This document shows, piece after piece, positions 6,201 to 52,524 of a DNA stretch of 64,000 nucleotides. Position 1 is the stretch's first letter, and the number at the start of each line of letters is the position of its first letter. The notes under the pieces are model-generated. The model was not told where the DNA came from. It made no database searches and saw only the letters and a program-made list of their open reading frames with translations. Source of the stretch: Bacteroidota bacterium (lineage in GTDB: Bacteria > Bacteroidota > Bacteroidia > Bacteroidales > FEN-979); the NCBI GenBank assembly GCA_026391835.1, contig JAPLDF010000045.1, positions 1-64,000 of the forward strand. The letters are read 5' to 3'. The position numbers were made by a program, and so were the translations under genes.

Positions 6201-8686
6201 GTGCGGGGGCTTCGGTTGTCTTAACGGCCTCGGGCGGCACAGGCTACCTGTGGTCGAATGCGACTACTACTGCAGCTATAACAGTTACAGTTGCCGGAAC
6301 CTACACCGTAACAGTGACGGATGGCAGCGGCTGTACCAATACTGCCAGCCGGGTGGTTACCGTAAATGCCCTGCCTGCGGCAGTGATCACCCCCGGTGGC
6401 CCGACAACCTTTTGTGTCGGCGGTTCTGTTGTGCTTACAGCTTCCGGTGGCACTGGCTACCTCTGGTCAAATGCTGCCACAACAGCAGCCATCACAGTGG
6501 TGGCAAGCGGCACCTACACGGTAACAGTTACCAGTGCTGCAGGATGCAGCAGCATAGCCAGCCAGGTTGTTACTGTAAATCCATCACCCACCGCCGTTAT
6601 AACCCCCGGTGGCCCTACCACCTTCTGTGCCGGAGGTTCCGTTTTACTTACCGCTTCAGGCGGCACTGGCTATCTATGGTCAAATGCTGCTACAACGGCT
6701 GCCATCACAGTGGTGGCAAACGGCACATATACAGTAACGGTTACCAATGCAGCCGGTTGCAGCAATTCTGCAAGCCGGGTGGTGACGGTCAATCCATTGC
6801 CCACGGCCACCATCACACCTCCTGGACCTACCGCTATTTGTGCGGGAGCTTCGGTTGTCTTAACGGCCTCGGGCGGCACAGGCTACCTGTGGTCGAATGC
6901 TTCCACGACGGCATCCATCACGGTTACGGTTGCCGGAACCTACACGGTTACGGTGACCGATGCCAACGGCTGCACCAACACTGCCAGCCGGGTGGTTACC
7001 GTAAATGCCCTGCCTGCGGCAGTGATCACCCCCGGTGGCCCGACAACCTTCTGTGCCGGCGGCTCCGTGAGCCTGTCTGCATCAGCAAATGCTGGCTATA
7101 TCTGGAGTACAGGGGCTACAACCCAAAGCATTACCGCAACCACATCTGGTTCTTATACAGTTACCGTTACAGATGGAAATGGTTGTACGGCAGTTTCGGC
7201 GGCGACTACAGTCACGGTGAACCCATGTGCTACGGTTACGCTGCTGCCCGACCTTGCAGGGCTATGCGTGGGGAACACATTTACAGTCCACGTTGTAGTG
7301 GCAGGAACTGATGTTGAGACCATGTTCCTTTATCTTGAGTTTGACCAGGCAGTCTTAACCCCTGCCGGGGTTGGTCCTGACTATCCCAATTTTACAACCA
7401 ATGTGGCTCCGGGCCCGGGATCTGAATTTGTTGATATTCAGAGCAACAATGGAGTGGGGACAAATTTTAGCGGTGAGACCATTGTTGATCTCTATTTTAT
7501 CTACAATGGAGGGACAACTGATATTCAATTCAGTGCTTTACCTCCCAGTGTGGTACAGAATTCTTTCGGAGTTCCGATCTCTACAACCTATACCGGGACA
7601 GGCAGTATCACGGGATCAGCAAATCCTGTCGCAGTGATCACACCAGGAGGCCCGACCACTCTCTGCGCCGGCGGATCCGTGATTCTTACTGCTTCAGGCG
7701 GCACCGGCTATCTCTGGTCAAATGCTGCCACAACAGCAGCCATCACGGTGGTGGCAAGCGGCACATACACAGTAACGGTTACCAATGCTGCAGGTTGCAG
7801 CAACACAGCCAGCCAGGCGGTGACAGTCAACCCGTTGCCCACGGCAACCATCACCCCGCCAGGACCTACGGCCATTTGTGCGGGTGCCTCGGTTGTCCTT
7901 ACAGCCTCGGGTGGCACCGGTTACCTTTGGTCGAATACGGCCACCACGGCTTCCATCACGGTTACAGTTGCCGGAACCTATACAGTTACCGTGACCGATG
8001 CCAACGGCTGCAGCAATACAGCCAGCCGCGTGGTGACAGTGAACACCCTTCCCACTGCGGTGATAACACCCAACGGGCCTACAACCTTCTGCCCCGGAGG
8101 ATCTGTCATCCTTACCGCTTCCGGCGGCACAGGTTACCTCTGGTCAACCACTGCAACCACTGCAGCCATAACTGTTTTAACGACCGGGACCTATACAGTC
8201 ACCGTGACAGATGCAAACGGGTGTTCGGCAACTGCTTCCCAAACGGTTACCGTGGCGGATAACCAGCCTCCCACATTCACGGCGCCAGGCCCGATCAGTT
8301 TTTGCGTGGAAAATATCAACACTGCGGACTATTTCGATCCCACCATGGATATCACCCCGGCCAGGCCGGATTATTACCTGTTTTCGCCAGGTAATACAAC
8401 CTTAAACCTTAATCCTGCCACTTTTGCCGACAACTGCCCGCTGACCTGCAGTGTTGAAATACGCTGGCGGATCAGCTTTTTTGACGGGACCTTCCTGCCG
8501 CCGGTTCTGCCTTACAATACCGGCCAGCCATCCACCTTTGGAAGCAATATCCAGTTTCCCGGCTCTGTAACCGGCGATGTAACACATTCAATAACTTATT
8601 GGATTGTCGACTGCAATGGAAATGTATCGTTGCCCGTAACCGTAAATGTTACAATTAAACCCAGACCTGATATCATTAAAAACTGA
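251..8686 (+). CDS. Giant secreted modular surface protein (beta-helix, Ig-like and cohesin-like modules)
   Basis: A 2811-residue exported protein. A long N-region leads into a hydrophobic signal segment ending near residue 54. Residues 55-450 are low-complexity beta-strand repeats rich in G, T, N and S. Residues about 650-1243 look like a right-handed beta-helix closing with PDIGADEF. Residues 1376-1540 resemble a choice-of-anchor J/MAM-like domain. From about 1605 Ig-like repeats of 71 residues (xxITPGGPTTFCxGGSVxLTASGGTGYLWS) form a first unit, then a block of seven, then a block of three. Two cohesin-like domains (about 1678-1823 and 2326-2457) separate these blocks. The C-terminus (2672-2811) is HYR-like and ends KPRPDIIKN instead of a T9SS type A domain. 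It is probably a cell-surface adhesin or matrix protein. The role is inferred from architecture only. Confidence 0.85.
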   Translation: MDNRARLFVFYVQRSYSLATLRSFFRQVTRGSLIHLVTVLFILFLFSVNKISAQNQWDGDNPVGNLSNCNNWYADACPTIWNSSTDLLFNLKNNASQTTMFHDIGWKDVKSIIYAGTFPYGVPLIGNGSSGFNFWYKVQNFSTYAQTISVPLSGYGTTLELDPTNADMTFDNTIFNSSNANYDVYGPNSKMLTLNGQLFGNSSVSLNIHEYSKVAIGYNHGAGSFGGGANVYTGELWFQPASAINGGTINVGSSGTTAKVYLNATTGGLTLPNNLVVVAGSTSTIGGLNSSGTNTFSGSVTLNSGVNLETVSGGTIDFAGNISGNYPVTISRVSGAAKAIIRYSTIAKSYTGTTTVANGTTLVLYTANIVPASNNFSVLSGGTLRIGADQTIGNLDLPAGSTLIVNPATTLIINGTYTGGGTITNNGTIILVGPSAFPGASTTVSAMANLTVNRAGGVVLDKAMTVSNVFTLTNGVVTTTAANLLSISNTATSAIAGGSPTSYISGPVLWTFPANLAAGSTYSIPIGKGSYMPMAIIDPVTGAGIITITAEVNNTPTGGSPGGSLSSISSTEFWVLTSTGNLTNHRVSLTRQTAVTPFNRIGRSTTVTGAYASVGGTPSGNSIINSNNTGAGASQYFVMAKAGAINVANANPASNGDYATLKAAFDAINASAQTGNNILVTINGGTVETATATLNQNAAPWSSMVIYPTATGYTVSGALATPLIYLNGADNVTINGNYLGGGQTLLLRNTNAIPSNTGPSIQYANGTLACTLTGCDIENNGTGATSGSILIGTGTNSVTISGNKIHDATGGTTGRPFIAIYSNSVNNSVTIDGNDIYNWSFTGVFLNNIANGASVTSNSFFQPTDNSTDVEQCAIDVRAGINHTISNNYIGGKATHCGGLAWVTSADVYFTGIYLSVGTTSPTSVQGNTIQNISLTSTNSNTWGSLFYGIEVAAGLVNVGTTTGNIIGHAVTANSISIAGTNTVPNYSSLIDGKDSYTGSCFENNVLANYTYTGTGAVYTYILTLNGNARKNRIYNVGSSTAGATGQIDGIHLTGTGGGECSNNFIALSGGNATNPTVYGIYANAATAAVNYIYYNSINIFGTATASSSTYAFRRANNSPFVLKNNILVNNRSAGGSGTHLAIYISPTGSLTSDYNDLFTAKASTLGYWPISYYDFAGWKTASGQDSHSINVAPVFVSNTNLHLVTSSNDGIDKKGTPLGAVTADIDGNARDAVTPDIGADEFVSTSCSPVTGGTASGSTSFCGSGTPSITATGYSVITGTTYQWQYSNDNFSNAGDVAGQINPAVLTTGVVSVTTWYRLRVTCPAAFDTGYSSVVAVTINVVPAAVTVTPSSATICNGNIQQLVATGGALPVTILSENFNAGSNNWAKINNSTFGTPANAAWTLRPDGYSYTGTWHSNDNTQFYLSNSDAQGSGGVTATILKSPAFSTVGYSAAILSFYHYFEHGFTDPARVDISSDGTSWTNLDTYTSDQGSMASFDHPSYSLSAPFLNQPTVYVRFTYNANQQYYWGIDNVSVTGTPVAPTVTWLPISGLYTDAGATAAYVNGTNLATVYAKPLATTTFTATSTSPAGCTSPGSSTITVNVPVATITPNGPTTFCAGSSVILTASLNSSYLWSTGATTRAITAIASGSYTVTVTDGNGCTAASAAIVIDVIPAPCGVLVTLQPDISGLCIGDTLHVPIHVTGDDIGGFIFLLDFDHSVLLQSPPGYSDVHPDFSGPLYIYDYDLLNTTAYVDILTIDPFVGTNFTGEKVFDLVFVYAGGSTDIHLRRSPDLAYPEWCQVHDVNSFDILPVTYTDIHVSGSSLPLPVAVITPGGPTTFCQGGSVMLTASGGTAGYLWSNAATTAAITVAASGAYTVTVTDVNGCTDTESATVTVNPLPVAAITPGGPTTFCSGGSVVLTASGGTGYLWSNAATTAAITVVANGTYTVTVTNAAGCSNSASRVVTVNPLPTVTITPPGPTAICAGASVVLTASGGTGYLWSNATTTAAITVTVAGTYTVTVTDGSGCTNTASRVVTVNALPAAVITPGGPTTFCVGGSVVLTASGGTGYLWSNAATTAAITVVASGTYTVTVTSAAGCSSIASQVVTVNPSPTAVITPGGPTTFCAGGSVLLTASGGTGYLWSNAATTAAITVVANGTYTVTVTNAAGCSNSASRVVTVNPLPTATITPPGPTAICAGASVVLTASGGTGYLWSNASTTASITVTVAGTYTVTVTDANGCTNTASRVVTVNALPAAVITPGGPTTFCAGGSVSLSASANAGYIWSTGATTQSITATTSGSYTVTVTDGNGCTAVSAATTVTVNPCATVTLLPDLAGLCVGNTFTVHVVVAGTDVETMFLYLEFDQAVLTPAGVGPDYPNFTTNVAPGPGSEFVDIQSNNGVGTNFSGETIVDLYFIYNGGTTDIQFSALPPSVVQNSFGVPISTTYTGTGSITGSANPVAVITPGGPTTLCAGGSVILTASGGTGYLWSNAATTAAITVVASGTYTVTVTNAAGCSNTASQAVTVNPLPTATITPPGPTAICAGASVVLTASGGTGYLWSNTATTASITVTVAGTYTVTVTDANGCSNTASRVVTVNTLPTAVITPNGPTTFCPGGSVILTASGGTGYLWSTTATTAAITVLTTGTYTVTVTDANGCSATASQTVTVADNQPPTFTAPGPISFCVENINTADYFDPTMDITPARPDYYLFSPGNTTLNLNPATFADNCPLTCSVEIRWRISFFDGTFLPPVLPYNTGQPSTFGSNIQFPGSVTGDVTHSITYWIVDCNGNVSLPVTVNVTIKPRPDIIKN
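5953..7230 (+). repeat. Higher-order 639-bp repeat of Ig-like modules inside the giant gene
   Basis: The Ig-like units are 213 bp long and fall into two kinds by their opening: A (ITPGGPTTFC) and B (ITPPGPTAIC). The order from 5953 is A-A-B then A-A-B. The stretch from 5953 to 6591 is therefore repeated almost exactly at 6592-7230, an offset of 639 bp. Related units reappear after the second cohesin-like module, at 7630-8270. Confidence 0.8.
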
Positions 8687-8900
8687 AACCCATGAAAACA
8701 CACCGTTCCCGTCCGCCCCCCGGCGTTGACTTTGTAAACGTGAAAAAATCAGCCCGCAATGGCCCTGTTGTTAAAAAACAACTTTCGGGTTACTACGGCT
8801 GACCAGCCACAAACATCCTTAATGCAATTTATTATCACACGATTACAATTAATTCCATTCAATTTTTTTACACATCATTCACAATTAAAAAATCAAAAAA

Positions 8901-10019
8901 ATGAAAAAGCAATTATTAGTTATGGTTTTGGCGCTATTCGCCATTGGTTTATCAAACACTTATGGACAGGTAACATGTCCGATCCCGCGTCCCGTTGACC
9001 CGGTATGCCTTCCAAGCGATGCATTGCATCCGATCGCCGGTCAGCCCTACAACTATACCGTTGTGGTACCGACACCCCCGGGAACCAAAGAATATACCTG
9101 GTTTGTTACGCAGGACCCTGCTTTCATGGCTGCAGGGGTACTTACAGCGGCTCGTGAAACAGTGCCTGGTGTGCATATGGCAGCCAGCGGTGTTGGTTAC
9201 AATGACCCTTTGACAGGATTGGCTACATTGTCAATTACCTGGAAAGCCTTTGTACCGGATCCTTCATTGCCTGTGTTTGTCGTGATAAGTGTTCAGAACA
9301 CGGCATCTACACCGGATTTGTGTGTTTCACACAACATGAAGGTGTTCAAGATCCTCCCGGTAAACGCTTTTACACTTGATGTTGCCAACGTAAATGCAGC
9401 AGGAGTTGCACTGGCACTTGAAACGGCGATCGACCGTTGTATTCACGACATCGTATCAGCAAGCTACAGTGCAGCTGCACCCGAAGGCGTTTTGTACGAC
9501 TTTGGTACAGACTACCTGTACTATGTGGTTACCGCTGCCAATTTCTCCACATCCTGGAGGCCAAGCGTACAATTAGCCGGTGTGGCTGCACTGGAAACAG
9601 TGACTGCAGTCGAATGGGCGAGACCGAATGATTTTGCCTTTGCAGCGCCGCATGCAATGCCGCTGGCCGCCGGAACCTATACCTCCACAGATGCAGTACT
9701 CGCGCTTGACGCAACAGGTACGGTCGGCGCTGCCGGAGAGTGTATCCTGATCAGGGTTACCCTTGATCACACCAACGGGGCAAACCAATACCAGGGTTTG
9801 ACTGACGAGGTTATCACCCTGGCAGTAGACGGTATTACAGACATTGCTGCCATACCCCCAACTCCGGATATTCATTTCTCATCAACCCTGCCGGTTGTAA
9901 ATGCACTTTGCGGGTTAGCCGACGGATTCCAATTCGACAAGGCCGTACAAACCCTCAAGCCAAGGCCGGATATTACTGCCCCGGCTATGCCAGCCCCAGG
10001 GTTGCTGCCTGTTAAATAA
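8901..10019 (+). CDS. Secreted PKD-like domain protein, function unknown
   Basis: A 372-residue exported protein with a clear signal peptide (MKKQLLVMVLALFAIG, cleavage near residue 23). The first third has the pattern PPGTKEYTWFV ... LSITWKAF, which matches the PKD-like domain of the four following genes. The rest is not recognised. It ends with LKPRPDITAPAMPAPG, so it shares KPRPDI with the end of the giant protein just upstream. It lies 214 bp downstream of that gene on the same strand. No catalytic motif is visible. A structural surface or matrix role is an inference from context. Confidence 0.75.
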   Translation: MKKQLLVMVLALFAIGLSNTYGQVTCPIPRPVDPVCLPSDALHPIAGQPYNYTVVVPTPPGTKEYTWFVTQDPAFMAAGVLTAARETVPGVHMAASGVGYNDPLTGLATLSITWKAFVPDPSLPVFVVISVQNTASTPDLCVSHNMKVFKILPVNAFTLDVANVNAAGVALALETAIDRCIHDIVSASYSAAAPEGVLYDFGTDYLYYVVTAANFSTSWRPSVQLAGVAALETVTAVEWARPNDFAFAAPHAMPLAAGTYTSTDAVLALDATGTVGAAGECILIRVTLDHTNGANQYQGLTDEVITLAVDGITDIAAIPPTPDIHFSSTLPVVNALCGLADGFQFDKAVQTLKPRPDITAPAMPAPGLLPVK

Positions 10020-10623
10020 TCAGGCGATCGTTTAATTATTGCTTTTTCATCCTGAATGCCTTCTGCCCGGAAATATGTCCGGGCAGGGGGTTGACAGGTT
10101 AAGGAAGGCAATTGTGGTATATAAGCCTGAGGCTATGTGCTTACGACCGATTGTGTTGGAAAAACACTGCGTTTGTTCCGGCAATCCCAGGATAGCCGGT
10201 AAAAGGATGGCTGTTTTTTATTGCAGCACAAAATGCATCTGTATCAGACAATAACAACCCGATGAATGAACCGAATCAACAACAAACACGGACCCGACAT
10301 TGATGTAGGGTTTCCGGTAATGAAACGGCCACGCGACGGAACCGCAAGGAAACCCCGCGATGGAACGGAAGAAGCGTCACGCGACGGAACCGAACGAATG
10401 CCACGTGATGAAATAATCATGCGGAACCGCGGCATTCCCTCCTCCAAACGACGAACACCTGTGCGGTGCAAACCGGCCAATTGGACCGGTAATGGGAGAG
10501 CTATGCCTGGAAATAAATTACAAATTACTAATGACCAATTACAAATTACAGAACTTAATATCCTTAATTCAAGACAGCTAACAGCTAAAATCGTAAATCC
10601 AAAATCGTAAATCGTAAATCAAT
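10020..10623. repeat. 604-bp intergenic region with a 24-bp tandem array and short AT-rich repeats
   Basis: Positions 10331-10424 hold about four degenerate 24-bp units with the core CGCGACGGAACCG. Read in one + frame they would encode PRDGT-type octapeptides, but the frame has no signal or known domain and the opposite strand is equally open. Positions 10512-10620 hold ATTACAAATTAC and AAATCGTAAATC words. The last of these touches the TTG start of the next gene. I see no other gene here. Confidence 0.6.
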
Positions 10624-16474: not shown

Positions 16475-16496
16475 TTAATCTTTAATTTTTAATTTC
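16466..16496. repeat. (ATTAAAAA)-type array overlapping a stop codon
   Basis: On the minus strand the words AAATTA, AAAATT, AAAGATTA and AAAATTA follow one another. They encode the last residues KLKIKD of the tiny exported protein and supply its TAA stop. Confidence 0.6.
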
Positions 16497-16720
16497 CCTC
16501 CAGTTGCCTGGTAGAGTTTCCACGCTCCAAACCCGGCAACCAGCGCGAGTGCAAGGTACAGGCCCCCGTCGAGGGGAGCGCCGCCGCCCGGTGCCTTGTT
16601 GGTATTGGATCCCTTTTCGGCCGGTGGAGGCGGGGGAGCCTGGGCCATGCCGGTCTTTGCAAATGTCATGCAGGCGATCAGTATGAATGAGAACAGGATG
16701 GCTTTGAAGTTTTTTTTCAT
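16475..16720 (-). CDS. Tiny Pro-rich exported protein with C-terminal sorting-type tail, copy 1
   Basis: An 81-residue protein. It has a signal peptide (MKKNFKAILFSFILIACMTF, cleavage after AQA), a PPPPP linker, then GGGAPLDGG and a hydrophobic segment (LYLALALVAGFGAWKL) with a short basic tail. This is the layout of exosortase-type or 'PID-CTERM'-like sorting signals of Bacteroidota. I name that family from memory and cannot verify membership. I chose the internal ATG because copy 2 (36665-36895) begins MKK; an upstream ATG at 16726 would add two residues. It lies 71 bp downstream of the 1527-residue adhesin on the same strand. Its last residues are encoded by an AT-rich repeat. Function is unknown. 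Confidence 0.75.
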   Translation of the reverse strand: MKKNFKAILFSFILIACMTFAKTGMAQAPPPPPAEKGSNTNKAPGGGAPLDGGLYLALALVAGFGAWKLYQATGGKLKIKD

Positions 16721-16748
16721 GATCATTTGTTTTGAATATTTTTTCTTT

Positions 16749-16791: not shown

Positions 16792-19700
16792 TTAATTCAT
16801 AAAAACTTTGCTTGAATATGCCTGGTCGCTGGTCACTACTTTTACCAGGTAGTAGCCGGTTGGCAGGTTCAGATTCAGGGTGCAATTTGAGCTGCCATTC
16901 AGGGCGGAGGTAGCGATGATTTGTCCCATCATGTTGTAAACGTAAATGTTCCCCTGGTTGTTGCCGGTGTTGTTGATCACATATAGGCTGTTTCCTGACG
17001 AATAGACGTTAAATACGTTGTTTTTCCGGATTTCACCAATGCCGACATGGCTGAAAGTCACCATAAAACGGTGGGGAGTATCTCCTGATACTGAAGTGAA
17101 GGAATATACAGGGTTTACCGACAGGTCCTGGGTGTAATTTGTGATCAGGTCATTCAGGATGACAGGCCCGTTGATGTTTGATATCGCCTTCGCCTCGATG
17201 CTGAAATTGCCCCCGTCGTTCCTGATAAAATCGAATGGAATCCTCACAGTTCCACCAGCATCCGGCAGCGTATTGGTTGAAAGATTTTCCGTACCCGCCA
17301 CTGAATAAAAGAGGGGCGCATATCCCGGGAGAAAATGGGAATCGAAGTCGGGATCAAAGCCGGCAGTTGACCGGTTGTCGAACCTGACATTGCTTTGTTG
17401 GGCAGTTTTGCCGTCGTTGTCAATTGCCGCCAATACGATAGAGGGCATGTCGCCGGATTTATACCATGCGGTTCCGTCATGAACCCGGTCAGTTTTTGGA
17501 ATGGTAAGTGAGCCGGTTCCACTGGTCACCTGTACCATGAATCCATTGAGTGCGGGGATTTTTCCGTTGGCGGAAACATCAATATAGGAGGCGGAAGATT
17601 CTTCCCAGATTTTCGCTGTCGCATTTATGTTAGTTAATAACCAGTCTGTTGTTCCCCAGGTAATGGCCGAAGTGAACGGATTTCCAAGGAGGTGCCAGCC
17701 CTGGTTTGTGCCTGCACTGATTGCAAGATTGCTGATGGTTATGTCATCTTTATTGAGTGTTCCGGCAAATTGTTTTGTTTCCGTGGCTGCATAACCTACA
17801 AGATACCCGGTTCCCGGAATAAAGCTTGTTAAATTGCTGTTGGCAGTATTCCAGGTAGGTGCAACTGATGTGTTTTTATAATTTACCCATAGGTTGCTCG
17901 GCTCATACCAGGCAAAAAAATCGTAATTGGCGGCGGTCGCATTTGTGAAGGCCGTTGCAATCGCCTGTTCTGCCACCGGGGATGAGAGGAAATGCCAGCC
18001 ATGCGTGGTACCAGCACCCCAGGCAGAAATATCCCGTTCAACCATTGCCGGAACCGCAGAGTTTTGGATAAGCGAGCCGCCGGAGCTGATGACCAGGCCG
18101 GAGGTGCCGGGAGTGTTGCTGACGTTGCCGCCAACTGTCAGGTTGCCGTTACCGGCAATGGTCAGACTGCCAGAGGTGATGGTCAGATCATTGCATAAAT
18201 TGCCGGTTGAACTGATAATGGGTGCAGTACCGGCAGAAACAATAACACCCGAAATCCCAGTGGTTGGTGCAACAGGTGGGGTCCAGTTTCCGGGGGTGTT
18301 CCAGTTTGCTGAGAGGCTGCCGTTCCATTGTGCGGAGGTGGCTGCGTTGATAATGCCATTGCTGCTGGGAACAAACGAGTAGCTGTAATTATTACCGCTG
18401 TTGCCATCCGTCACAATTCCCGAAGGAGTCATAACCTTTGAGGTACCAACATTGGCATTGTCATATCCCTGTGTAAAGGCAGCAACATCGCCACTCTGGA
18501 CAACACCTGAGGTAACAGTTGGGGTGGCCGTAGAGCTATTATTGCCATCGAAGGTCTTGGTGTTTGCTGCGCCGGTGATGGTCAATGGCCGTATGATTAT
18601 ATTGGCCGTTAACCCTGTTGGTTGTGTAAGCGAATAAGCACCTGCATTGGCTCCTGCGAGTGTGCTTGTAGAGGTAACACCTATTCCGTTAGCAACATTC
18701 ACACTTGCAAAGGTTCCGGTTCCATTTAAAGTAACAGCATCGGGTGATACCACACCAGACAGTGTTCCTGTAATTGCCGCAGTATTGGTTTTATCATACA
18801 TCTTACTGGTAGCTGCAGGACTGGAGACTGTCAATGGGATTGAGGTTTCACCCAATTGAACATCGTTTGAACCGTTACCGGTAGAAAAACTGCTTGAATT
18901 GGTATAAGTTGGGGTGCTAAATGAAGTGGCATTTGATGTAACTGTGCCTGTTCCTTCTCTTCTTAAAATTACAACTGAACCTGTCGGAGTTAAACCACTG
19001 TTGTTAAGTCCAACAGTATAATCAATTCCTGTAGCCGATTGTGTGATATTCCAATACCTCGCCCCAAAACGTGCCGTACTTATTGATGCCAAAGACAATG
19101 GCGAACCGCTTTCAAATTGCTCGATGGTGACCGTTTTTGAGGTTGGAGCAGCCGTATAGGTAAAAGTAACCGGCCGGTAATTTCCACCTTTGCCAACAGG
19201 GAAAGCAGTTGCTGTTGTGGAAGTAATGACCCTTGCCAGTTTGCCATTTACAAAGCTCGTTACGCCTGCACCGCTTAATGTTCCTGCAGATGCAATGGTG
19301 ATGGTGTTGCTTCCAGTGGTTACCAATCCCTTGGTAAGAGTTAAAGTATTGTTTATCGTCACATCATTGGCTAGAATAACATCGCCGGAGGTTGCTTTAT
19401 TAATTGTAAAATAAGAGAATGTTTCTCCACCTGATTTTGTGATTGTTTGGTCTCCGGTTGCACCATTGAAAAAAACTGTCCGGCTGTTTGTATTAAATGT
19501 TCCGGTAGTATGCGTCCAATTACCCCCAACATTCAAGTCACCATTTATTGCGTCTCCCAACGACACATTACCAGCAATGCTAATGTTTCGGTTTACTGTT
19601 AATGATCCACTCTTATTTGCTCCTCCACCATAATCCATATATAAGGATGATCCGGCATCAATTGTTAAGTCTCTGGCAATAATTAAAGGCAAAGCGAATG

Positions 19701-21375
19701 CGGAGCCACCGGAATTTGGATAATTCAGGGTTGTGGAGTTAGAAATTTGTACATCATTGGGAAATCCAGCCCCTGAAATTGTACTCCATTCAGCACTACG
19801 GTCGAAAATACCTCCCAAATTGTACTTTAATGAGGATGTGTTACCATAGGTGGGTGCCTGGTTGAAAGAGCCACCTGCGTTTATCTGGCAGGTGCCATTT
19901 ATTGTAATTACAGAACTGTTGCTCAATGTAACAGCCGCAGCAGTCTGAAATGTACCAGTAACAGTGCGGTCCGTTCGAACACCTGAACCAAGTGTTAATC
20001 CTCCCTGTAAAATCGTCACATTTGCCGGGCCACTTGTGGTAGGCCAATAAACATGAGTATTGTCAACGCCATAAGAGGTCGAATTATTAAAAGAAAGTGA
20101 ACCAGAGGCGCCATAAACAAAATTAGTTCCCGATGCATAACCTCCTGTATTTATCTGGAACGAGCCATTTATAGTTGTTGTTCCATTGTTTGTGAATGTA
20201 GCATTAGTTGCAAATGTACATCCACTATTAACAGTAGTTGTACCGCTGATTGTTCTAGCGGCATGTAATGTAACGCCATTTGTATTATCAATTATTAAAT
20301 TTTTCGGTCCACTTGTAGTTGGAAATTCAAGATTTGTTGTTAGTTGAGCACCTGAACCTTTATACTCTAAAGTGCTGTTGGCACCAAAAGTGGCTGCAGT
20401 TGTTGTCATTGCAGCAGTGCCTTGCATGGAAAGTGTACCCGAAACAGTGGCAGTCGAAGAAGCAGGCAGTGATTTATTTCCAGAACCCGATAGAGTTAAA
20501 TTATAATATGATATAGCTATGGTCCCACTAGCAGCAGCCCTGTTTATTGTTTGATTACCCGCAAGGTTATAGTTAACTGTTGTCCCGACTGCGTTTAAAA
20601 TAAGCGTATACGTTATACCGCCTGAACCCCATGGTGCCGATAAATCTGTATCTGTCGCCCAGGGTGATGTTCCCCCAAGGTTTAATGTCCCAGTATGGGT
20701 CCCCTGGTCCATTCTAAAAGCCAAACTATTTGCTGTTGAGGGAGTGTTTGGTGTAATTGCTCCATTCACGGTGAGTGTACCTTCATTTAAGTAAAAACGT
20801 GGTACCACATAATAGGTACTTGAAGGGGTGTAGTATGTAGCAACAAGATTCAAATTGCCACTTACATTCATCGTATTAATGGTGGATGTTAATGTTGCAT
20901 TTGTATTAACAGTTGAATTTGTACTTCCTCCAACCGTAATACTAGCACATGTTAGTGCTCCTGCACCTGAAATTGAACAATCTACAGATAAAGTAGTTCT
21001 TGGATTTAAACTGATTCCTCCTGAAACAGCAAGTGAAAATCCGTTATTTACAATCAAGTTGCCTGAACTAACACTAGGTGAAGTCTCAGCAAAGTTCAAT
21101 GTGGTACATGCTGCATCGGCTGTCACCGTTATAGTATATCCATTCTCAATATAAACCACATCACCAGCAACCGGAACACTCACCCCTGCTGCACCTCCAG
21201 AGCTGGCAGACCATGTACTTGTAGCATTCCAATTTCCACTAGCAACAGAATAACGGGCACCCCACGCCACCTGCCCCATGGCCGTTGCCACTATAATAAA
21301 TACCACAATAATTTTCAAACTCTTCCGCAGCCTGGCTGCATGGTTTTGTCTCTCGGAATAAAGGTCAATTTTCAT
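16792..21375 (-). CDS. Large T9SS-secreted beta-helical adhesin-like protein with YDG-type repeats
   Basis: A 1527-residue exported protein with a signal peptide ending near residue 40. Residues 41-850 are repeated beta-strand segments of the filamentous or autotransporter-associated kind (SGNWNATSTWS, then many SLTVNxNISIAGN-like strands). Two YDG/MBG-like repeats follow (MYDKTN near 857, TFDGNN near 938). A conserved block from about 1125 (GWHFLSSPVAEQ) is shared with the 1139-residue protein at 33130-36549. Residues about 1450-1527 form a T9SS type A sorting domain (IYVYNMMGQIIATSAL ... GYYLVKVVTSDQAYSSKVFMN). It is likely exported and anchored at the cell surface. A tiny exported protein follows it, as it does the paralogue. 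The adhesion role is inferred. Confidence 0.85.
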   Translation of the reverse strand: MKIDLYSERQNHAARLRKSLKIIVVFIIVATAMGQVAWGARYSVASGNWNATSTWSASSGGAAGVSVPVAGDVVYIENGYTITVTADAACTTLNFAETSPSVSSGNLIVNNGFSLAVSGGISLNPRTTLSVDCSISGAGALTCASITVGGSTNSTVNTNATLTSTINTMNVSGNLNLVATYYTPSSTYYVVPRFYLNEGTLTVNGAITPNTPSTANSLAFRMDQGTHTGTLNLGGTSPWATDTDLSAPWGSGGITYTLILNAVGTTVNYNLAGNQTINRAAASGTIAISYYNLTLSGSGNKSLPASSTATVSGTLSMQGTAAMTTTAATFGANSTLEYKGSGAQLTTNLEFPTTSGPKNLIIDNTNGVTLHAARTISGTTTVNSGCTFATNATFTNNGTTTINGSFQINTGGYASGTNFVYGASGSLSFNNSTSYGVDNTHVYWPTTSGPANVTILQGGLTLGSGVRTDRTVTGTFQTAAAVTLSNSSVITINGTCQINAGGSFNQAPTYGNTSSLKYNLGGIFDRSAEWSTISGAGFPNDVQISNSTTLNYPNSGGSAFALPLIIARDLTIDAGSSLYMDYGGGANKSGSLTVNRNISIAGNVSLGDAINGDLNVGGNWTHTTGTFNTNSRTVFFNGATGDQTITKSGGETFSYFTINKATSGDVILANDVTINNTLTLTKGLVTTGSNTITIASAGTLSGAGVTSFVNGKLARVITSTTATAFPVGKGGNYRPVTFTYTAAPTSKTVTIEQFESGSPLSLASISTARFGARYWNITQSATGIDYTVGLNNSGLTPTGSVVILRREGTGTVTSNATSFSTPTYTNSSSFSTGNGSNDVQLGETSIPLTVSSPAATSKMYDKTNTAAITGTLSGVVSPDAVTLNGTGTFASVNVANGIGVTSTSTLAGANAGAYSLTQPTGLTANIIIRPLTITGAANTKTFDGNNSSTATPTVTSGVVQSGDVAAFTQGYDNANVGTSKVMTPSGIVTDGNSGNNYSYSFVPSSNGIINAATSAQWNGSLSANWNTPGNWTPPVAPTTGISGVIVSAGTAPIISSTGNLCNDLTITSGSLTIAGNGNLTVGGNVSNTPGTSGLVISSGGSLIQNSAVPAMVERDISAWGAGTTHGWHFLSSPVAEQAIATAFTNATAANYDFFAWYEPSNLWVNYKNTSVAPTWNTANSNLTSFIPGTGYLVGYAATETKQFAGTLNKDDITISNLAISAGTNQGWHLLGNPFTSAITWGTTDWLLTNINATAKIWEESSASYIDVSANGKIPALNGFMVQVTSGTGSLTIPKTDRVHDGTAWYKSGDMPSIVLAAIDNDGKTAQQSNVRFDNRSTAGFDPDFDSHFLPGYAPLFYSVAGTENLSTNTLPDAGGTVRIPFDFIRNDGGNFSIEAKAISNINGPVILNDLITNYTQDLSVNPVYSFTSVSGDTPHRFMVTFSHVGIGEIRKNNVFNVYSSGNSLYVINNTGNNQGNIYVYNMMGQIIATSALNGSSNCTLNLNLPTGYYLVKVVTSDQAYSSKVFMN

Positions 21376-32288: not shown

Positions 32289-32738
32289 ATGTCATACGTT
32301 AAAATATGGGTGCATGCAGTGTGGGGGACAAAATGGAGGTACCCTTTTCTGGTGGGAGGATTGAGAACAAAAGCGCTGAACCATATTGTCGCAAACGCTT
32401 CAGAAAAAGGTATCGAAATTTGCCAGATCAATTGCTGGGTTGATCATTTTCATTGCCTGATCAGGCTCGGTCCCGAACAGAGTATTGCCGGAGTCATCAA
32501 ACTGATTAAAGGGGAGTTTTCATGCTGGGTGAACAAAGCCGGATTATCGAAAAAGAGGTTTCGATGGGCGAGGGAATACTACGCCGCCTCAGTCAATGAA
32601 CGCGCGGTGCGAAACGTGAAACACTATATTCAGAACCAGGAGCGGCATCATATGAATCAGACTTATTATCAGGAGATTGCTAAGTATTTTGATGCCCCAA
32701 TTCCAGAGAGACCCGAAGGGGGATCTTCTATATCCTGA
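32289..32738 (+). CDS. REP-associated tyrosine transposase (IS200/IS605-like Y1 family)
   Basis: A 149-residue HUH endonuclease of the Y1 transposase family. It shows the HUH motif His53-Phe54-His55 in VDHFHCLIRL and the catalytic tyrosine in REYYAASV (Tyr97 or Tyr98), plus the conserved PEQSIAGVIKLIKGE segment and the VRNVKHYIQNQERHH helix. Family members nick and join single-stranded DNA at hairpins. The gene is flanked by hairpins at 32079-32098 and 32752-32822, and no partner TnpB is present. This fits a domesticated RAYT serving REP-like palindromes better than an active insertion sequence. Confidence 0.87.
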   Translation: MSYVKIWVHAVWGTKWRYPFLVGGLRTKALNHIVANASEKGIEICQINCWVDHFHCLIRLGPEQSIAGVIKLIKGEFSCWVNKAGLSKKRFRWAREYYAASVNERAVRNVKHYIQNQERHHMNQTYYQEIAKYFDAPIPERPEGGSSIS

Positions 32739-33129: not shown

Positions 33130-36100
33130 ATGAAAAAACTATTTTCTACTTCTTTCCAATCTATGGGTAATGTGCAAAAAGCATTTTCGCTCATTTGTTT
33201 TATTGAAGGTTCGGGAGAACGCTCTTGTATTAAGCATTCTTTTAAAATATTACTCCTTTTATTATCTTTTAGCATGTTCAGTGGTACTGTCATTTCACAG
33301 ACAACAAGGTATTGGAGTGGAAATAGTAGTGCCAGTGATAATATTGATCAGGGGACTAACTGGCATGATGGTGTCAACCCTGCTTCTGGGGATAATCTCA
33401 CTTTTAATAATACTCTTAACAGACACTTTGCCTACTCAAACTATGGTTCTGGGTCTTGGTTTAATTTTATTATAACCTATAGCGGAGCAGGGGGTATCAA
33501 GCTATACGGAGACAATACGTATGCAAAAAAATTTGAAAATAATAGTGATGGAAATCTTTTTGAATTAGGACCAAGTAGTGCAAGTGCTGGTAATAGAGAA
33601 ATAGGGAATCGGGTAAATAATGACTTGGAAATTAATCCTACAGGAACTGGTGGCATTTTAGTTTCTTGCGATAAAATCTCTATGGATAATGTGAATGGTG
33701 CTAGGAATTTGAAAGTGTATGGCTCGCATACATTAACTATTAACGGCAACATTTACGAAAAAAATGGTTCTGGCGCAACATTGCAAATTCTGCAGGGTGC
33801 AACTGTTATTTTAAATGGAAATTCTTCATATACAGGTGCTACTACCATTAGCTCTGGAACCCTACGCCTAGGTATCGCGGAGGCTATATCTAACTCGTCT
33901 AATATGGTTCTAAATGGCGGGACCTTCAGTACTGGAGCATCCACAGGCTATACCGAAACGATTGGAACTTTAACATTAAGTAGCAGTTCAACTATTTCAT
34001 TCGGAACAGGATCTCATACATTGACTTATGCTGCAAGTAACGGGGTTTCCTGGTCGGGAACTTTATCCGTGAATAATTGGACCAGCACCGGTCCGAAGTT
34101 GTATTTTGGAACATCAAATATGGGCCTCACCGCAACACAATTAAGTAATATTAATTTTACAGGTTTCGGAACTGGCGCAAAAATTTTATCAACAGGTGAA
34201 ATTATACCTGCCTCCGTTTATATTTCTGCTTCTTCAGGAAACTGGAATACCGGAAGCACCTGGGTTGGAAGCAGCGTACCTTCCGCTGGTGCTATCGTCT
34301 TTGTTGAAAATGGGCATAATGTAACACTTGATGTGGCTGCATCGGTTACGGGTTTAACAATCCATTCAGGTGGAACATTTACTGCTTCAGATGCTACTCC
34401 AAGGACCTTAACCATTACTAAATCAACAACCGGCAATGTAACAACAATTTCCAACAGCGGAACGTGGCAAAATGGGTCAGGTACATCTACAGTTTTAGTT
34501 ACCGGAGCTCCAAGCGGAGGTGATGCTGTTCATTCAATTTCAGGCACGATCACGTTCCAGAATATAGTTGTAAATAAAACAGGAGGGACGTCAAACATTG
34601 GGTGTTCTTTCGGATCTGGTTCATCAGTTGCCGGAACTTTGGAAATAGGCGCAGGAGGTTTTATTTCAACTGCACCTCCTGCAAGTTTCTATGGTTCAAA
34701 TGCCATTCTTAAGTTCAACCAGGGCACGGGCGCAACATATAATGTTGAAGCTGGTGATTATTCATGGTCAACAACACAAGTACCCAATTATATTACAATC
34801 AGTTCAGGTACTGTAAACCTAAACGCTAACAGAACGGCCTCAGGTAATCTACTTATCGACGGCGGTGCATTGATATTGAATTTAAATACTCCTAATCTTA
34901 CCATTCAGGGAAACTGGACACGTACTTCAGGAAATTTTACAGCAGGTTCAGGAACTGTCACCTTAAGCGGAACGACAAACGGCGTAGTTGATGTTGCTGG
35001 CGGAGCAACAATGAATAACCTGGTAATTAATAAAACCTCAGGAACTGGCGTTAACCTTTCCTGCGATGCAATTGTTACCGGAACACTTACCATCACATCA
35101 GGTTTTCTTTCAATTGGTGTCCATGACCTCACCATCACCGGCCCCCTCACCAACTCCGCCGGCAGCGGCGGCCTGGTTGTCGAGAGCGGAGGTTCGCTTA
35201 TCACCAATGGTACTGTTTCAGGCGGGGCTACCGTCAAACGCGAAATCGCTTCCGACAGCAAATGGCACTTTATCTCATCCCCTGTTTCGGGACAAAATAT
35301 CTGTGATGGAAACTTTGCGCCCCTGGCTGCAAATTTCAATGCCACCACCGGGGCAACATTTGATTTCTACAAATGGAGCGAACCAACCATCACCGGCGGT
35401 CTGAACTGGATTAACCTGAAACAGGCGGATTGGTCGGTAAATACCACTGCTTTCGGGGCAACCCTGCAGTTTGCCGTTGGAGCAGGCTACCTGGTTGACT
35501 ACACCGGTTCTTTTGGCGGAAGTACCACCAAATCATTTGCCGGTACCCTTATTTCAGGGGACCAGTCGGTTACGTTAACAACCGGCGGAAACACGTGGAA
35601 CCTGATCGGCAACCCTTTTGCATCAGCGATCAACTGGGATAATGTTATCAAAACAGGGATCCTGGCCGATGGCTACTATTATGTTTACAACGAAGCAAAA
35701 TCGGGAGGTGCCGGGTATGAATCATACCTGAATTCAACCTATAAAACTTCAGGTGCCAACGGCAAGATTTCCGCCATGCAGGGATTCTTTGTAAAGGCTG
35801 CATCCAGCCCGCTCAGCCTCCCGAATGCGGCCCGCACGCACGACAACAACTGGATGAAAAAATCAGAGACCAGCACGGTGAACCAGTTGACACTAAAAAT
35901 GGGTAACGATGCCGCCTGGGATGAGGCCTTCCTCGTTTTTGAGGCCGCCGGAAGTTTGAATAAAGGCTGGTACGACGCCGAGAAAATGTTCAGCATGAGT
36001 GCTGAAGTTCCCCAGGTTTATACATTGAAGGACAATGATCTGAAAATCAGTATTGGTTCATTTCCTGTCATCACTGGCACAGTTACAGTTCCTGTCGGCA

Positions 36101-36549
36101 TGGTTATTCCATCCGATGGCAGCTATTCTTTTCAATTGTCTGGTTTTGAAAGTTTCGCATCACTGCCGGGAATCGTGCTGGAAGACCTTAAGTTGCACAC
36201 CACGCAGAACCTGGTCCAGACCCCCGCGTATAATTTCACCGCTGCAACTGCTGATGACCCGAACCGTTTCCTGCTCCATTTTGCCGGGACCAACGGGATC
36301 AATGATGCACTGGCAGGCGGGTCGTTCCATGTTTTTGCTTCGGGCAATACATTGTTTGTAACCGACAATGGTGGTCAAAACCAGGGGACGGTATATGTAT
36401 ACAACCTGATGGGTCAAATGATCTCCACCTCCGCCATGAATGGAAAATCAGTCTGCAGCATGAGCCTGGACGTTCCTGCCGGGTACTACCTCGTAAAAGT
36501 GATTACAGCAGGGCAGAACTATTCGACAAAGGTCTTTATAAATAAATAG
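33130..36549 (+). CDS. Large T9SS-secreted beta-helical adhesin-like protein with autotransporter-type repeat
   Basis: A 1139-residue exported protein. The N-region is long and the hydrophobic signal (ILLLLLSFSMFSG) ends near residue 57. Residues 58-680 are beta-helical strands and include an autotransporter-associated repeat near 228-240 (SSYTGATTISSGTLRLG). The block from about 712 (WHFISSPVSGQN; WNLIGNPFASAINWD) matches the 1527-residue protein. Residues 1066-1139 form a T9SS type A domain (VYVYNLMGQMISTSAMNG ... STKVFINK). GC content rises visibly after about 35100, where the conserved block begins, so the N-terminal half may have a different history. A copy of the tiny exported protein follows 115 bp downstream. 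An adhesin role is inferred. Confidence 0.85.
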   Translation: MKKLFSTSFQSMGNVQKAFSLICFIEGSGERSCIKHSFKILLLLLSFSMFSGTVISQTTRYWSGNSSASDNIDQGTNWHDGVNPASGDNLTFNNTLNRHFAYSNYGSGSWFNFIITYSGAGGIKLYGDNTYAKKFENNSDGNLFELGPSSASAGNREIGNRVNNDLEINPTGTGGILVSCDKISMDNVNGARNLKVYGSHTLTINGNIYEKNGSGATLQILQGATVILNGNSSYTGATTISSGTLRLGIAEAISNSSNMVLNGGTFSTGASTGYTETIGTLTLSSSSTISFGTGSHTLTYAASNGVSWSGTLSVNNWTSTGPKLYFGTSNMGLTATQLSNINFTGFGTGAKILSTGEIIPASVYISASSGNWNTGSTWVGSSVPSAGAIVFVENGHNVTLDVAASVTGLTIHSGGTFTASDATPRTLTITKSTTGNVTTISNSGTWQNGSGTSTVLVTGAPSGGDAVHSISGTITFQNIVVNKTGGTSNIGCSFGSGSSVAGTLEIGAGGFISTAPPASFYGSNAILKFNQGTGATYNVEAGDYSWSTTQVPNYITISSGTVNLNANRTASGNLLIDGGALILNLNTPNLTIQGNWTRTSGNFTAGSGTVTLSGTTNGVVDVAGGATMNNLVINKTSGTGVNLSCDAIVTGTLTITSGFLSIGVHDLTITGPLTNSAGSGGLVVESGGSLITNGTVSGGATVKREIASDSKWHFISSPVSGQNICDGNFAPLAANFNATTGATFDFYKWSEPTITGGLNWINLKQADWSVNTTAFGATLQFAVGAGYLVDYTGSFGGSTTKSFAGTLISGDQSVTLTTGGNTWNLIGNPFASAINWDNVIKTGILADGYYYVYNEAKSGGAGYESYLNSTYKTSGANGKISAMQGFFVKAASSPLSLPNAARTHDNNWMKKSETSTVNQLTLKMGNDAAWDEAFLVFEAAGSLNKGWYDAEKMFSMSAEVPQVYTLKDNDLKISIGSFPVITGTVTVPVGMVIPSDGSYSFQLSGFESFASLPGIVLEDLKLHTTQNLVQTPAYNFTAATADDPNRFLLHFAGTNGINDALAGGSFHVFASGNTLFVTDNGGQNQGTVYVYNLMGQMISTSAMNGKSVCSMSLDVPAGYYLVKVITAGQNYSTKVFINK

Positions 36550-36557
36550 GTAAAAGG

Positions 36558-36627
36558 TCCTGCAGATTTAAGCGGAAAAACATCCCGCAGATTTGCGCTG
36601 GGAAAGACGCGGATTTTCGCAGATATT
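36558..36627. repeat. CGCAGATTT-type repeat element, copy 2
   Basis: Contains TGCAGATTTAAGCGG, CCGCAGATTTGCGC and CGCGGATTTTCGCAGAT in direct and inverted order. It fills the gap between the adhesin and the tiny exported protein. Confidence 0.55.
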
Positions 36628-36664
36628 AGAAAAATTCAAGTAAAGCATTGCAAAACAATCAGCC

Positions 36665-36895
36665 ATGAAAAAAAGTTTCAAACCATTCATGTTTGCGCTG
36701 GTCCTCCTCAGCTGCATCACATTTGCAAAGACCGGGCTGGCCCAGGCTCCCCCGCCTCCTCCTGCCGAAAAAGGATCAAACACCAACAAAGCCCCCGGCG
36801 GCGGCGCGCCGCTTGATGGCGGGGTGTATCTTGCGCTGGCGCTGGTGGCTGGTTTTGGGGCCTGGAAATTTCTAAGGAGAGTGGAGAAGGTTTAA
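36665..36895 (+). CDS. Tiny Pro-rich exported protein with C-terminal sorting-type tail, copy 2
   Basis: A 76-residue protein. It has a signal peptide (FMFALVLLSCITFAKTG, cleavage after AQA near residue 28), PPPPP at 29-33, GGGAPLDGG at 45-53, a hydrophobic segment 54-69 and a basic end (RRVEKV). It matches copy 1 (16475-16720) almost residue for residue from about 18 to 68, although many codons differ by silent changes. The Pro-Leu-Asp motif, membrane segment and Arg tail fit a C-terminal sorting signal cut by an exosortase. An exosortase-like gene overlaps its 3' end by 4 bp on the other strand. The function of the mature peptide of about 25 residues is unknown. Confidence 0.78.
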   Translation: MKKSFKPFMFALVLLSCITFAKTGLAQAPPPPPAEKGSNTNKAPGGGAPLDGGVYLALALVAGFGAWKFLRRVEKV

Positions 36896-37467
36896 GGGGT
36901 TTTCTCCCGGTTGTTGATCCGCTCCACCCAGATCACCCACAGGGCAAGGATCACAACATAAAACATCCCTCTTAACACGGTGTTGTGTGCAAAATGCCAC
37001 CACTCGGGCTTGTAGATGGAAACCAGCGAAAGCAGCACGATCCTCAGGATATTGGTGCAATGAATGATCAACACGCCCAGGGGAATATACCATAATTTGT
37101 TTTTCCACAAACCGGGATAAATAAGCAGTAACAGGATAAACTGCAATATCTGTTTATCCCCCGAGCAGCTTCCGTTTATTTTGATCCAGCTGCCATTGTC
37201 AAAGGACATGGTAAGTCCTGATGTTTTCAGTGGAATATTCAGGATATGCTGGTCGACCCAGATGCTCTGGTAAAAAACCCATCGTGTAAGTACGATGTGC
37301 AAATCATTCATCCACGACTGGATAGGCCAGTAGTGGAAACTGTTGTTCCACAACCTGTAGGAATAGTGGATTGCGAGCGTAATCACGGCAAACCAGAACA
37401 CCTGCCTGATTTGCCGGTAACCGGGATCGTTGAAGAATTTCTTAATCCAGATCGTAATCATGTTCAT
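36892..37467 (-). CDS. Exosortase/archaeosortase family transpeptidase-like membrane protein
   Basis: A 191-residue protein with several membrane segments. It shows the three residues expected of the family: Cys101 in NGSCSGDKQ, Arg142 in TNILRIVLLS and His161 in WWHFAHNTVLRGMF. The arrangement (CSG, then N-x-x-R, then H-N before a last helix) matches short Bacteroidota exosortases, though I cannot assign an Xrt subtype. Exosortases cut C-terminal sorting signals and probably transfer the protein to a carrier. The gene converges on the tiny exported protein with a 4-bp overlap, which makes that protein and its copy at 16475-16720 the likely substrates. This pairing is an inference. Confidence 0.85.
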   Translation of the reverse strand: MNMITIWIKKFFNDPGYRQIRQVFWFAVITLAIHYSYRLWNNSFHYWPIQSWMNDLHIVLTRWVFYQSIWVDQHILNIPLKTSGLTMSFDNGSWIKINGSCSGDKQILQFILLLLIYPGLWKNKLWYIPLGVLIIHCTNILRIVLLSLVSIYKPEWWHFAHNTVLRGMFYVVILALWVIWVERINNREKTP

Positions 37468-52434: not shown

Positions 52435-52524
52435 ATGACAAGTGACAAGTGACAAGTGACAAGTGACGAATGACAAGTGACGAATGACAAGTGACGAATG
52501 ACAAGTGACGAATGACAAGTGAAT
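52434..52524. repeat. (GTGACAA)n heptad array between two genes, containing a GTG start
   Basis: The run TAAATGACAAGTGACAAG, then GTGACGA and ATGACAA units, fills the whole 84-bp gap. The GTG start of the next gene is the first codon of the last unit. Confidence 0.8.

Follow-up and report, generated by a model that had tools for sequence, protein, structure and literature searches.

What does an exosortase do in a bacterium with a type IX secretion system (T9SS), when its gene runs tail-to-tail into that of a tiny exported protein? The two genes lie in a window of 64,000 nucleotides, the whole stretch of DNA that was analysed, and are placed as the original prediction had them, convergent and with a 4-bp overlap (Table 1). 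That prediction gave the 76-residue protein the layout of an exosortase substrate, and PLDGG, a helix and a basic tail are indeed seen in the sequence, where a signal peptide-like start is followed by QAPPPPPAEKGSNTNKAPGGGAPLDGG, the helix and the tail KFLRRVEKV. A model calculated from the single sequence has helices at residues 5-23 and 50-74 and leaves the part between them unstructured, at low confidence (mean pLDDT 63). The mature peptide, first put at about 25 residues, would be marginally longer, with 27 residues from the likely cleavage between Ala and Gln to the GG pair. The genome has three genes of this type encoding two different peptides; two are in the window and the third is on contig C5 at position 52444.

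Table 1. Position, strand and supporting evidence for the genes of the window discussed in the text
Feature	Position	Strand	Evidence
Small exported protein of PID-CTERM type, 76 aa, with signal peptide, mature part rich in Pro and Gly, then PLDGG, a helix and a basic tail	36665..36895	+	ORF; NF046080 17.8 bits, under cut-off 26
Second PID-CTERM-type gene, mature peptide same as that of 36665	16475..16726	-	19.8 bits, under cut-off
Exosortase, 191 aa, Cys101/Arg142/His161	36892..37467	-	TIGR04178 and PF09721 profiles, alignment, structure model
T9SS type A cargo, 1139 aa, beta-strand/autotransporter-type repeats, adhesin-like	33130..36549	+	TIGR04183 33 bits, cut-off 23
T9SS-type cargo, 1527 aa, directly upstream of the second small gene	16792..21375	-	Por_Secre_tail 24.0 bits (under gathering 27), YDG repeats 66.8

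Is the larger protein of the pair an exosortase? The original prediction had regarded a profile placement outside the family as fatal to its case, and the searches put the protein inside, at 58.7 bits against the superfamily model TIGR04178 (cut-off 23) and 31.6 bits against PF09721, the exosortase/archaeosortase family (cut-off 25.7). The three residues that it had named, C101, R142 and H161, are each conserved to at least 90% among 28 aligned homologues, and we take this set to be catalytic. A model built from 12 sequences consists mostly of long helices, with a mean pLDDT of 85.9. Neither the sequence, at E ≤ 0.01, nor the fold of the model, at E ≤ 0.001, found a match in the PDB. The enzyme has 11 named relatives from uncultured Bacteroidales or Bacteroidetes, one labelled Draconibacterium and one Lentimicrobium; presumably some live in lakes, as isolate names such as LacPavin suggest.

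The nearest curated counterpart is the pairing of PID-CTERM proteins (NF046080) with exosortase X (XrtX, NF046081). The likeness lies in the tripartite C-terminus of P-x-D-GG, helix and basic tail, in the small exosortase and in co-occurrence within the phylum, and NF046081 is the best-scoring named exosortase subfamily for the window enzyme. The differences concern scores and phylogeny. The enzyme reaches 82.5 bits against a cut-off of 170, and the small protein, which does present P-[ILV]-D-G-G, a helix and a basic tail on a short exported chain, stays under the cut-off of 26 bits with 17.8, or 18.8 (E 0.0135) when the genome is searched. Such sub-threshold matches to PID-CTERM are noisy, the model matching eight of 14 control genomes at E ≤ 1, none over the cut-off. 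The third small gene of the genome passes with 36.3 bits. In an exosortase tree of 78 proteins out of 85 distinct ones, seven short, fragmentary or very divergent sequences having been left out, the window enzyme belongs to a clade of 24 rows (99/85) with relatives from its own order. The five proteins that pass the XrtX cut-off derive from PID-CTERM genomes elsewhere in the phylum and fall in other clades, L161 (201.6 bits), L172 (191.8) and L197 (175.9) in one of 26 rows (100/97), L193 (248.8) and L195 (186) in one of five rows (87/82). Because the enzyme lies under the XrtX cut-off and in a separate clade, the window pair is, at the level of sequence comparison, a divergent variant of the known XrtX/PID-CTERM pairing and no member of it by the curated tests. 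We note separately a PID-CTERM-like tail, VPIDGEVWVLLAGG, that ends a 995-residue frame in another genome (L191; G265, contig C1, 3618-6602, minus strand). This is possibly a rare fusion or chance, and no Pfam domains were found in the frame.

Other systems offer more distant comparisons. Exosortase F (TIGR04128) of Flavobacterium johnsoniae is likewise an exosortase in a T9SS organism, but the window enzyme scores only 51.4 bits against that model, for which the cut-off is 90. The available part of a 2024 study (PMC10936215) reports that F. johnsoniae xrtF and a neighbouring gene are needed for colonisation and biofilm, and leaves the XrtF substrates to future work. The XrtH/IPTL-CTERM system (TIGR04177, TIGR04174) shares with the window an exosortase with substrate-type proteins nearby and differs in its signal, IPTVSQWG, and in its larger substrates. 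It also occurs in this genome, whose exosortases at E ≤ 0.1 number three: that of the window, one of XrtH type on contig C35 and one in an apparent polysaccharide cluster on contig C58. The C35 enzyme, in the region comprising 6748-7329 and 8123-10503 of that contig, stands beside two very similar proteins of 282 and 312 residues with an IPTL-CTERM-type tail; it scores 93.2 bits for XrtH (cut-off 86), and the one tail tested 20.8 bits for IPTL-CTERM (cut-off 20.5). Finally, as far as the accessible part of the source describes it (PMC7468200), the GlyGly-CTERM/rhombosortase system with type II secretion also couples a membrane-processed C-terminal tail to an outer-membrane secretion route. There, however, it is the cargo that carries the tail, and a rhomboid protease acts as the enzyme.

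The two copies of the small gene in the window provide information on the peptide itself. Their mature parts are identical in protein and separated by 14 silent and no replacement changes in DNA, whereas the signal peptides differ by eight silent and 12 replacement changes. When nine genes encoding this type of peptide, drawn from four species of the genus, are compared, the mature part has a pN/pS of 0.20 (0.13 without the most divergent gene), and the signal peptide and the helix plus tail have 0.50 each; an earlier count on five genes gave 0.13, 0.54 and 0.60, respectively. The silent-only divergence of the window copies, together with this pattern, indicates from sequence variation that the mature peptide is under selection and that its sequence matters, beyond a Pro/Gly-rich make-up. 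The original prediction had entertained a mere linker among possible roles, an idea to which the silent-only divergence is opposed. Gene conversion is disfavoured as the cause of the identity given the 14 silent changes between the copies. The core in the nine genus genes reads PLDGG, PVDGG, PIDGG, PIDGS, PIDSG or PIDAG, P-[ILV]-D being constant, and among 80 collected proteins, for which the search pattern required P-[ILV]-D, PIDGG is present in 68. A likely signal peptidase motif, cleavage after A-x-A and before Gln, occurs in 59 of the 80, and by this rough cleavage rule 45 of the 59 have a mature part without Lys. In Bacteroidetes a Gln exposed by such cleavage becomes pyroglutamate, according to the accessible parts of two papers (PMC5837995, PMC10653852). 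A peptide acting as acceptor of cargo through an amine is disfavoured since many mature parts lack Lys and start with Gln, again on the rough cleavage rule.

Which genes accompany the peptide? Two features that the original prediction missed, the second copy of the small gene and the large gene upstream of the 76-residue protein, together point to a more general rule. All three small genes of the genome stand behind a gene with a T9SS-type tail. The tail of the 33130-36549 cargo is of type A by TIGR04183, its last 150 residues alone giving 38.5 bits; the full protein scores over the threshold for G8 (25.0, threshold 22.9) and under it for PATR (24.8, threshold 27) and Por_Secre_tail (21.1, threshold 27). 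A gap of 115 nt separates this cargo gene from the small gene, and no terminator-like site was found at 36550-36664. The Pfam tail model stays under the gathering score for the cargo of the C5 gene. An IS200-like Y1 transposase (PF01797, 82.9 bits) is found at 32289-32738 of the window, between two T9SS cargo genes.

The arrangement extends to other genomes. A gene encoding a type A tail of the T9SS (TIGR04183) lies upstream at 48 of 62 sampled small-gene loci, these being the best-scoring copies with at most one per genome per set, and dependent to a degree as several are orthologous. The set of relatives holds 30 loci, the C5 copy (L001) and L038 to L066, of which 28 have an upstream ORF; with the two window copies added, 24 of 30 upstream neighbours match at E ≤ 0.01. 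The phylum-wide set of 30 loci gives 24 matches among the 28 with an upstream ORF. Of the 14 loci lacking a type A tail upstream, ten were scanned without a match and four had no ORF to scan; they include small genes in tandem with an exosortase (L038, L040, L041 and L135), and others lie behind housekeeping genes (for example L142, L145 and L157). The gap from cargo to small gene is below 100 nt for 48 of the 56 neighbours measured. A Pfam scan of 13 of the 22 cargo genes listed, plus the second cargo of the window, identified repeats, Ig, fn3, laminin G, YDG and lamin tail domains. Two sub-threshold matches to a purple acid phosphatase N-terminal domain apart, no enzyme domains were found in these 14 proteins. 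The Pfam tail model matches ten of them at E ≤ 0.001, some frames being cut by contig ends.

The sortase of the T9SS, PorU, might be supposed to take part, and at E ≤ 1e-10 a PorU match (NF033707) is found in 51 of 62 PID-CTERM genomes against 229 of 330 others, a weak association (p 0.025). The genome of the window has two such matches. As a required partner PorU is unsupported, with no match at this threshold in 11 of the 62 genomes. Seven of the 11 were inspected by eye, and a type A-like tail stands upstream of the small gene in four (G180, G207, G349 and G373) and is absent in three (G218, G270 and G428). The weak association, with tails present in PorU-less genomes, suggests a link to the type of cargo rather than to the PorU sortase.

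On balance we favour, with modest confidence, an explanation in which the exosortase of the window is of a divergent XrtX type and has PID-CTERM-type substrates of its own, each small gene of the genome being coupled to a T9SS cargo gene and the peptide working with that cargo. The explanation builds on the enzyme family, the gene coupling, the selection on the mature peptide and the co-occurrence described below. Cargo and small protein would be co-expressed and exported by Sec, after which signal peptidase I would leave the small protein with Gln at its N-terminus, a residue that should become cyclic under the published Bacteroidetes Q-rule. The C-terminal helix would hold the small protein in the inner membrane. 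The exosortase would then cleave in the vicinity of P-[ILV]-D-G and attach the C-terminus so created to a lipid or glycan. The short, sequence-specific peptide so conjugated may then contact the adhesin-like cargo and serve in its assembly or anchoring at the surface.

If enzyme and small protein belong together their genes might be expected to stay close in other genomes, and the original prediction considered the tight pairing meaningful. This has held up, in that an exosortase domain and a PID-type gene are found no more than about 1 kb apart in at least eight of 100 relatives, the genome of the window included, and in at least six of 392 genomes in the phylum sample, more than chance would give. 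Four of the eight relatives represent one orthologous site in the genus of the window. Adjacency spans several parts of the exosortase tree, with the genes either convergent or in tandem. The genome of the window and two relatives (G002 and G017) have cargo gene, small gene and exosortase gene in this order; in a third (G001) the small gene-exosortase pair is kept and the contig ends just upstream of the small gene. Ten genomes of other lineages (G052, G059, G077, G098, G132, G144, G171, G214, G372 and G414) have both genes on the same strand, no more than about 1 kb apart. In G001 and G002 the profile search found the adjacent genes, which the regular-expression scan had missed. Near the close exosortase orthologues of G003, G004, G013 and G015 neither the profile nor a broad pattern detected a small gene, and these genomes carry PID-CTERM genes elsewhere.

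Co-occurrence was a further check, the original prediction having reasoned that genomes with the tiny protein and no such exosortase would count against the pairing. In the phylum sample there are none: all 62 PID-CTERM genomes (E ≤ 1e-4, all over the cut-off) have a TIGR04178 match, against 154 of 392 overall (E ≤ 0.01, 143 of the 154 over the cut-off; Fisher p 7e-30), a comparison of non-independent genomes since a single family, f82, accounts for 32 of the 62. Among the 100 relatives the association holds less strictly, with TIGR04178 in 38 of 49 PID-CTERM genomes and 17 of 51 others (p 8e-6), so that in 11 of 49 the objection is partly borne out. Nine of these 11 are in two genera. One (G037) has a Cys-less homologue, detected by profile A1 (28 rows), and in three further relatives (G031, G034 and G039) the sole exosortase homologue lacks Cys and His, which brings the PID-CTERM relatives without a detected Cys-bearing exosortase to 14 of 49. 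G040, in which the TIGR04178 match is a fragment without the Cys region, is excluded from this count. Searches of the exceptions for a divergent exosortase gave, apart from G037, a very weak match to G041 with profile A1 (E 0.09) and, with profile A6 (Cys-less and polysaccharide-cluster types) in the ten exceptions other than G037, one very weak match, to G032 (E 0.26). Rhombosortase was rejected as the missing enzyme in exosortase-less PID-CTERM genomes, 0 of 20 genomes being over the TIGR03902 cut-off. Weaker matches, present in 19 of the 20, are probably general rhomboids since they also occur in all 14 control genomes. The assemblies of the exceptions are 69-98% complete. The exceptions may reflect loss of the exosortase with substrate genes retained, an enzyme that escaped detection or an unrelated protease. 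The link to cargo is seen by eye in G029, G033 and G041, none of which has a TIGR04178 match, and because it persists in some genomes without a detected Cys-bearing enzyme the exosortase may be non-essential to the unit of cargo and peptide.

Seven exosortase homologues from two genera (g4 and g5) of the same family (L036/L097, L098 to L102 and L108) form one clade in which the Cys is replaced by Leu or Phe and the His is lost, and on this evidence they look like conserved pseudoenzymes. Upstream of six of the seven (L098 is the exception) lies a gene ending like GSTPYCHGYTKRF, and the one scanned, at L097, encodes a methionine sulfoxide reductase (PMSR and SelR).

The exceptions bear on the alternative that fares best, that the small protein stays uncut and helps its T9SS cargo from the inner membrane, which it spans once, the exosortase being either not its processing enzyme or only a means of removing it. 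Coupling to cargo at 48 of 62 loci is what such a helper would show, and the 14 relatives without a detected Cys-bearing enzyme, like the seven homologues of the same family that lost Cys and His, agree with it. Against this we set the complete co-occurrence in the phylum sample, the adjacency of small gene and exosortase in several lineages, and the helix and tail, which in the genus set vary more than the mature part. We regard an uncut helper as unlikely.

Still less probable is that we are dealing with an ordinary XrtX/PID-CTERM pair and that the T9SS neighbour reflects merely how common such cargo is. NCBIfam models do exist for both parts, and the genome is rich in type A tails, at least 150 being listed (364 candidates, of which 150 were scored). 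The window proteins are, however, under both cut-offs and the enzyme is outside the XrtX clades. The abundance of cargo can also be allowed for. If the genome has about 4,400 genes, an estimate, 364 tails would amount to about 8% of them, and at a generous base rate of 8.3% the probability of a cargo gene at 46 or more of 60 loci is 1e-37 (without the window copies the count is 46 or 47 of 60); the true value is larger because orthology among the loci overstates their independence.

The weakest alternative, which we think quite improbable, is a secreted signal, possibly blocked at both ends and acting between cells next to a cargo gene that is merely co-regulated: a short, constrained mature part, the frequent Gln start and paucity of Lys, and a few regulator-like neighbours seen by eye (LytTR-like at L047 and L050, Crp-like at L062, sensor-like at L066) would suit it, but across the loci read by eye the cargo neighbour recurs and no regulator-like neighbour does, and the three small genes of this genome, with their two different peptides, are all behind cargo genes.

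We therefore return to the divergent XrtX-type exosortase with substrates coupled to cargo, the parts of which differ in strength. Family membership, adjacency and co-occurrence lend good support to the two proteins of the window as a putative enzyme-substrate pair. For a possible role of the peptide with the T9SS cargo encoded next to it, the support comes from the coupling of the genes. More tentatively, the arrangement might represent a split surface-sorting unit, in which a T9SS adhesin without a CTERM tail of its own is encoded with a separate, exosortase-finished and C-terminally conjugated peptide, often pyroglutamate-capped, that would be its dedicated cofactor or anchor.

The idea of a tiny exosortase substrate is not in itself new, because the NCBIfam PID-CTERM and XrtX models already capture the pairing. 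As far as our searches show, the coupling to cargo and the evidence of selection on the mature peptide are new, and the notes of the NCBIfam entries may already state part of this. No papers on PID-CTERM or exosortase X were found in the open-licence PMC literature, and passages from some open-licence PMC papers on 'exosortase' and 'type IX secretion' do not describe this coupling.

For the question of what exosortases act on in T9SS bacteria, it matters that PID-CTERM peptides can now be connected with particular T9SS cargo genes at several places in the phylum. The coupling to cargo and the selection on the peptide make a direct test on one named cargo possible. If true, a split sorting unit would connect the exosortase system with type IX secretion, and this would hold generally across much of the phylum.
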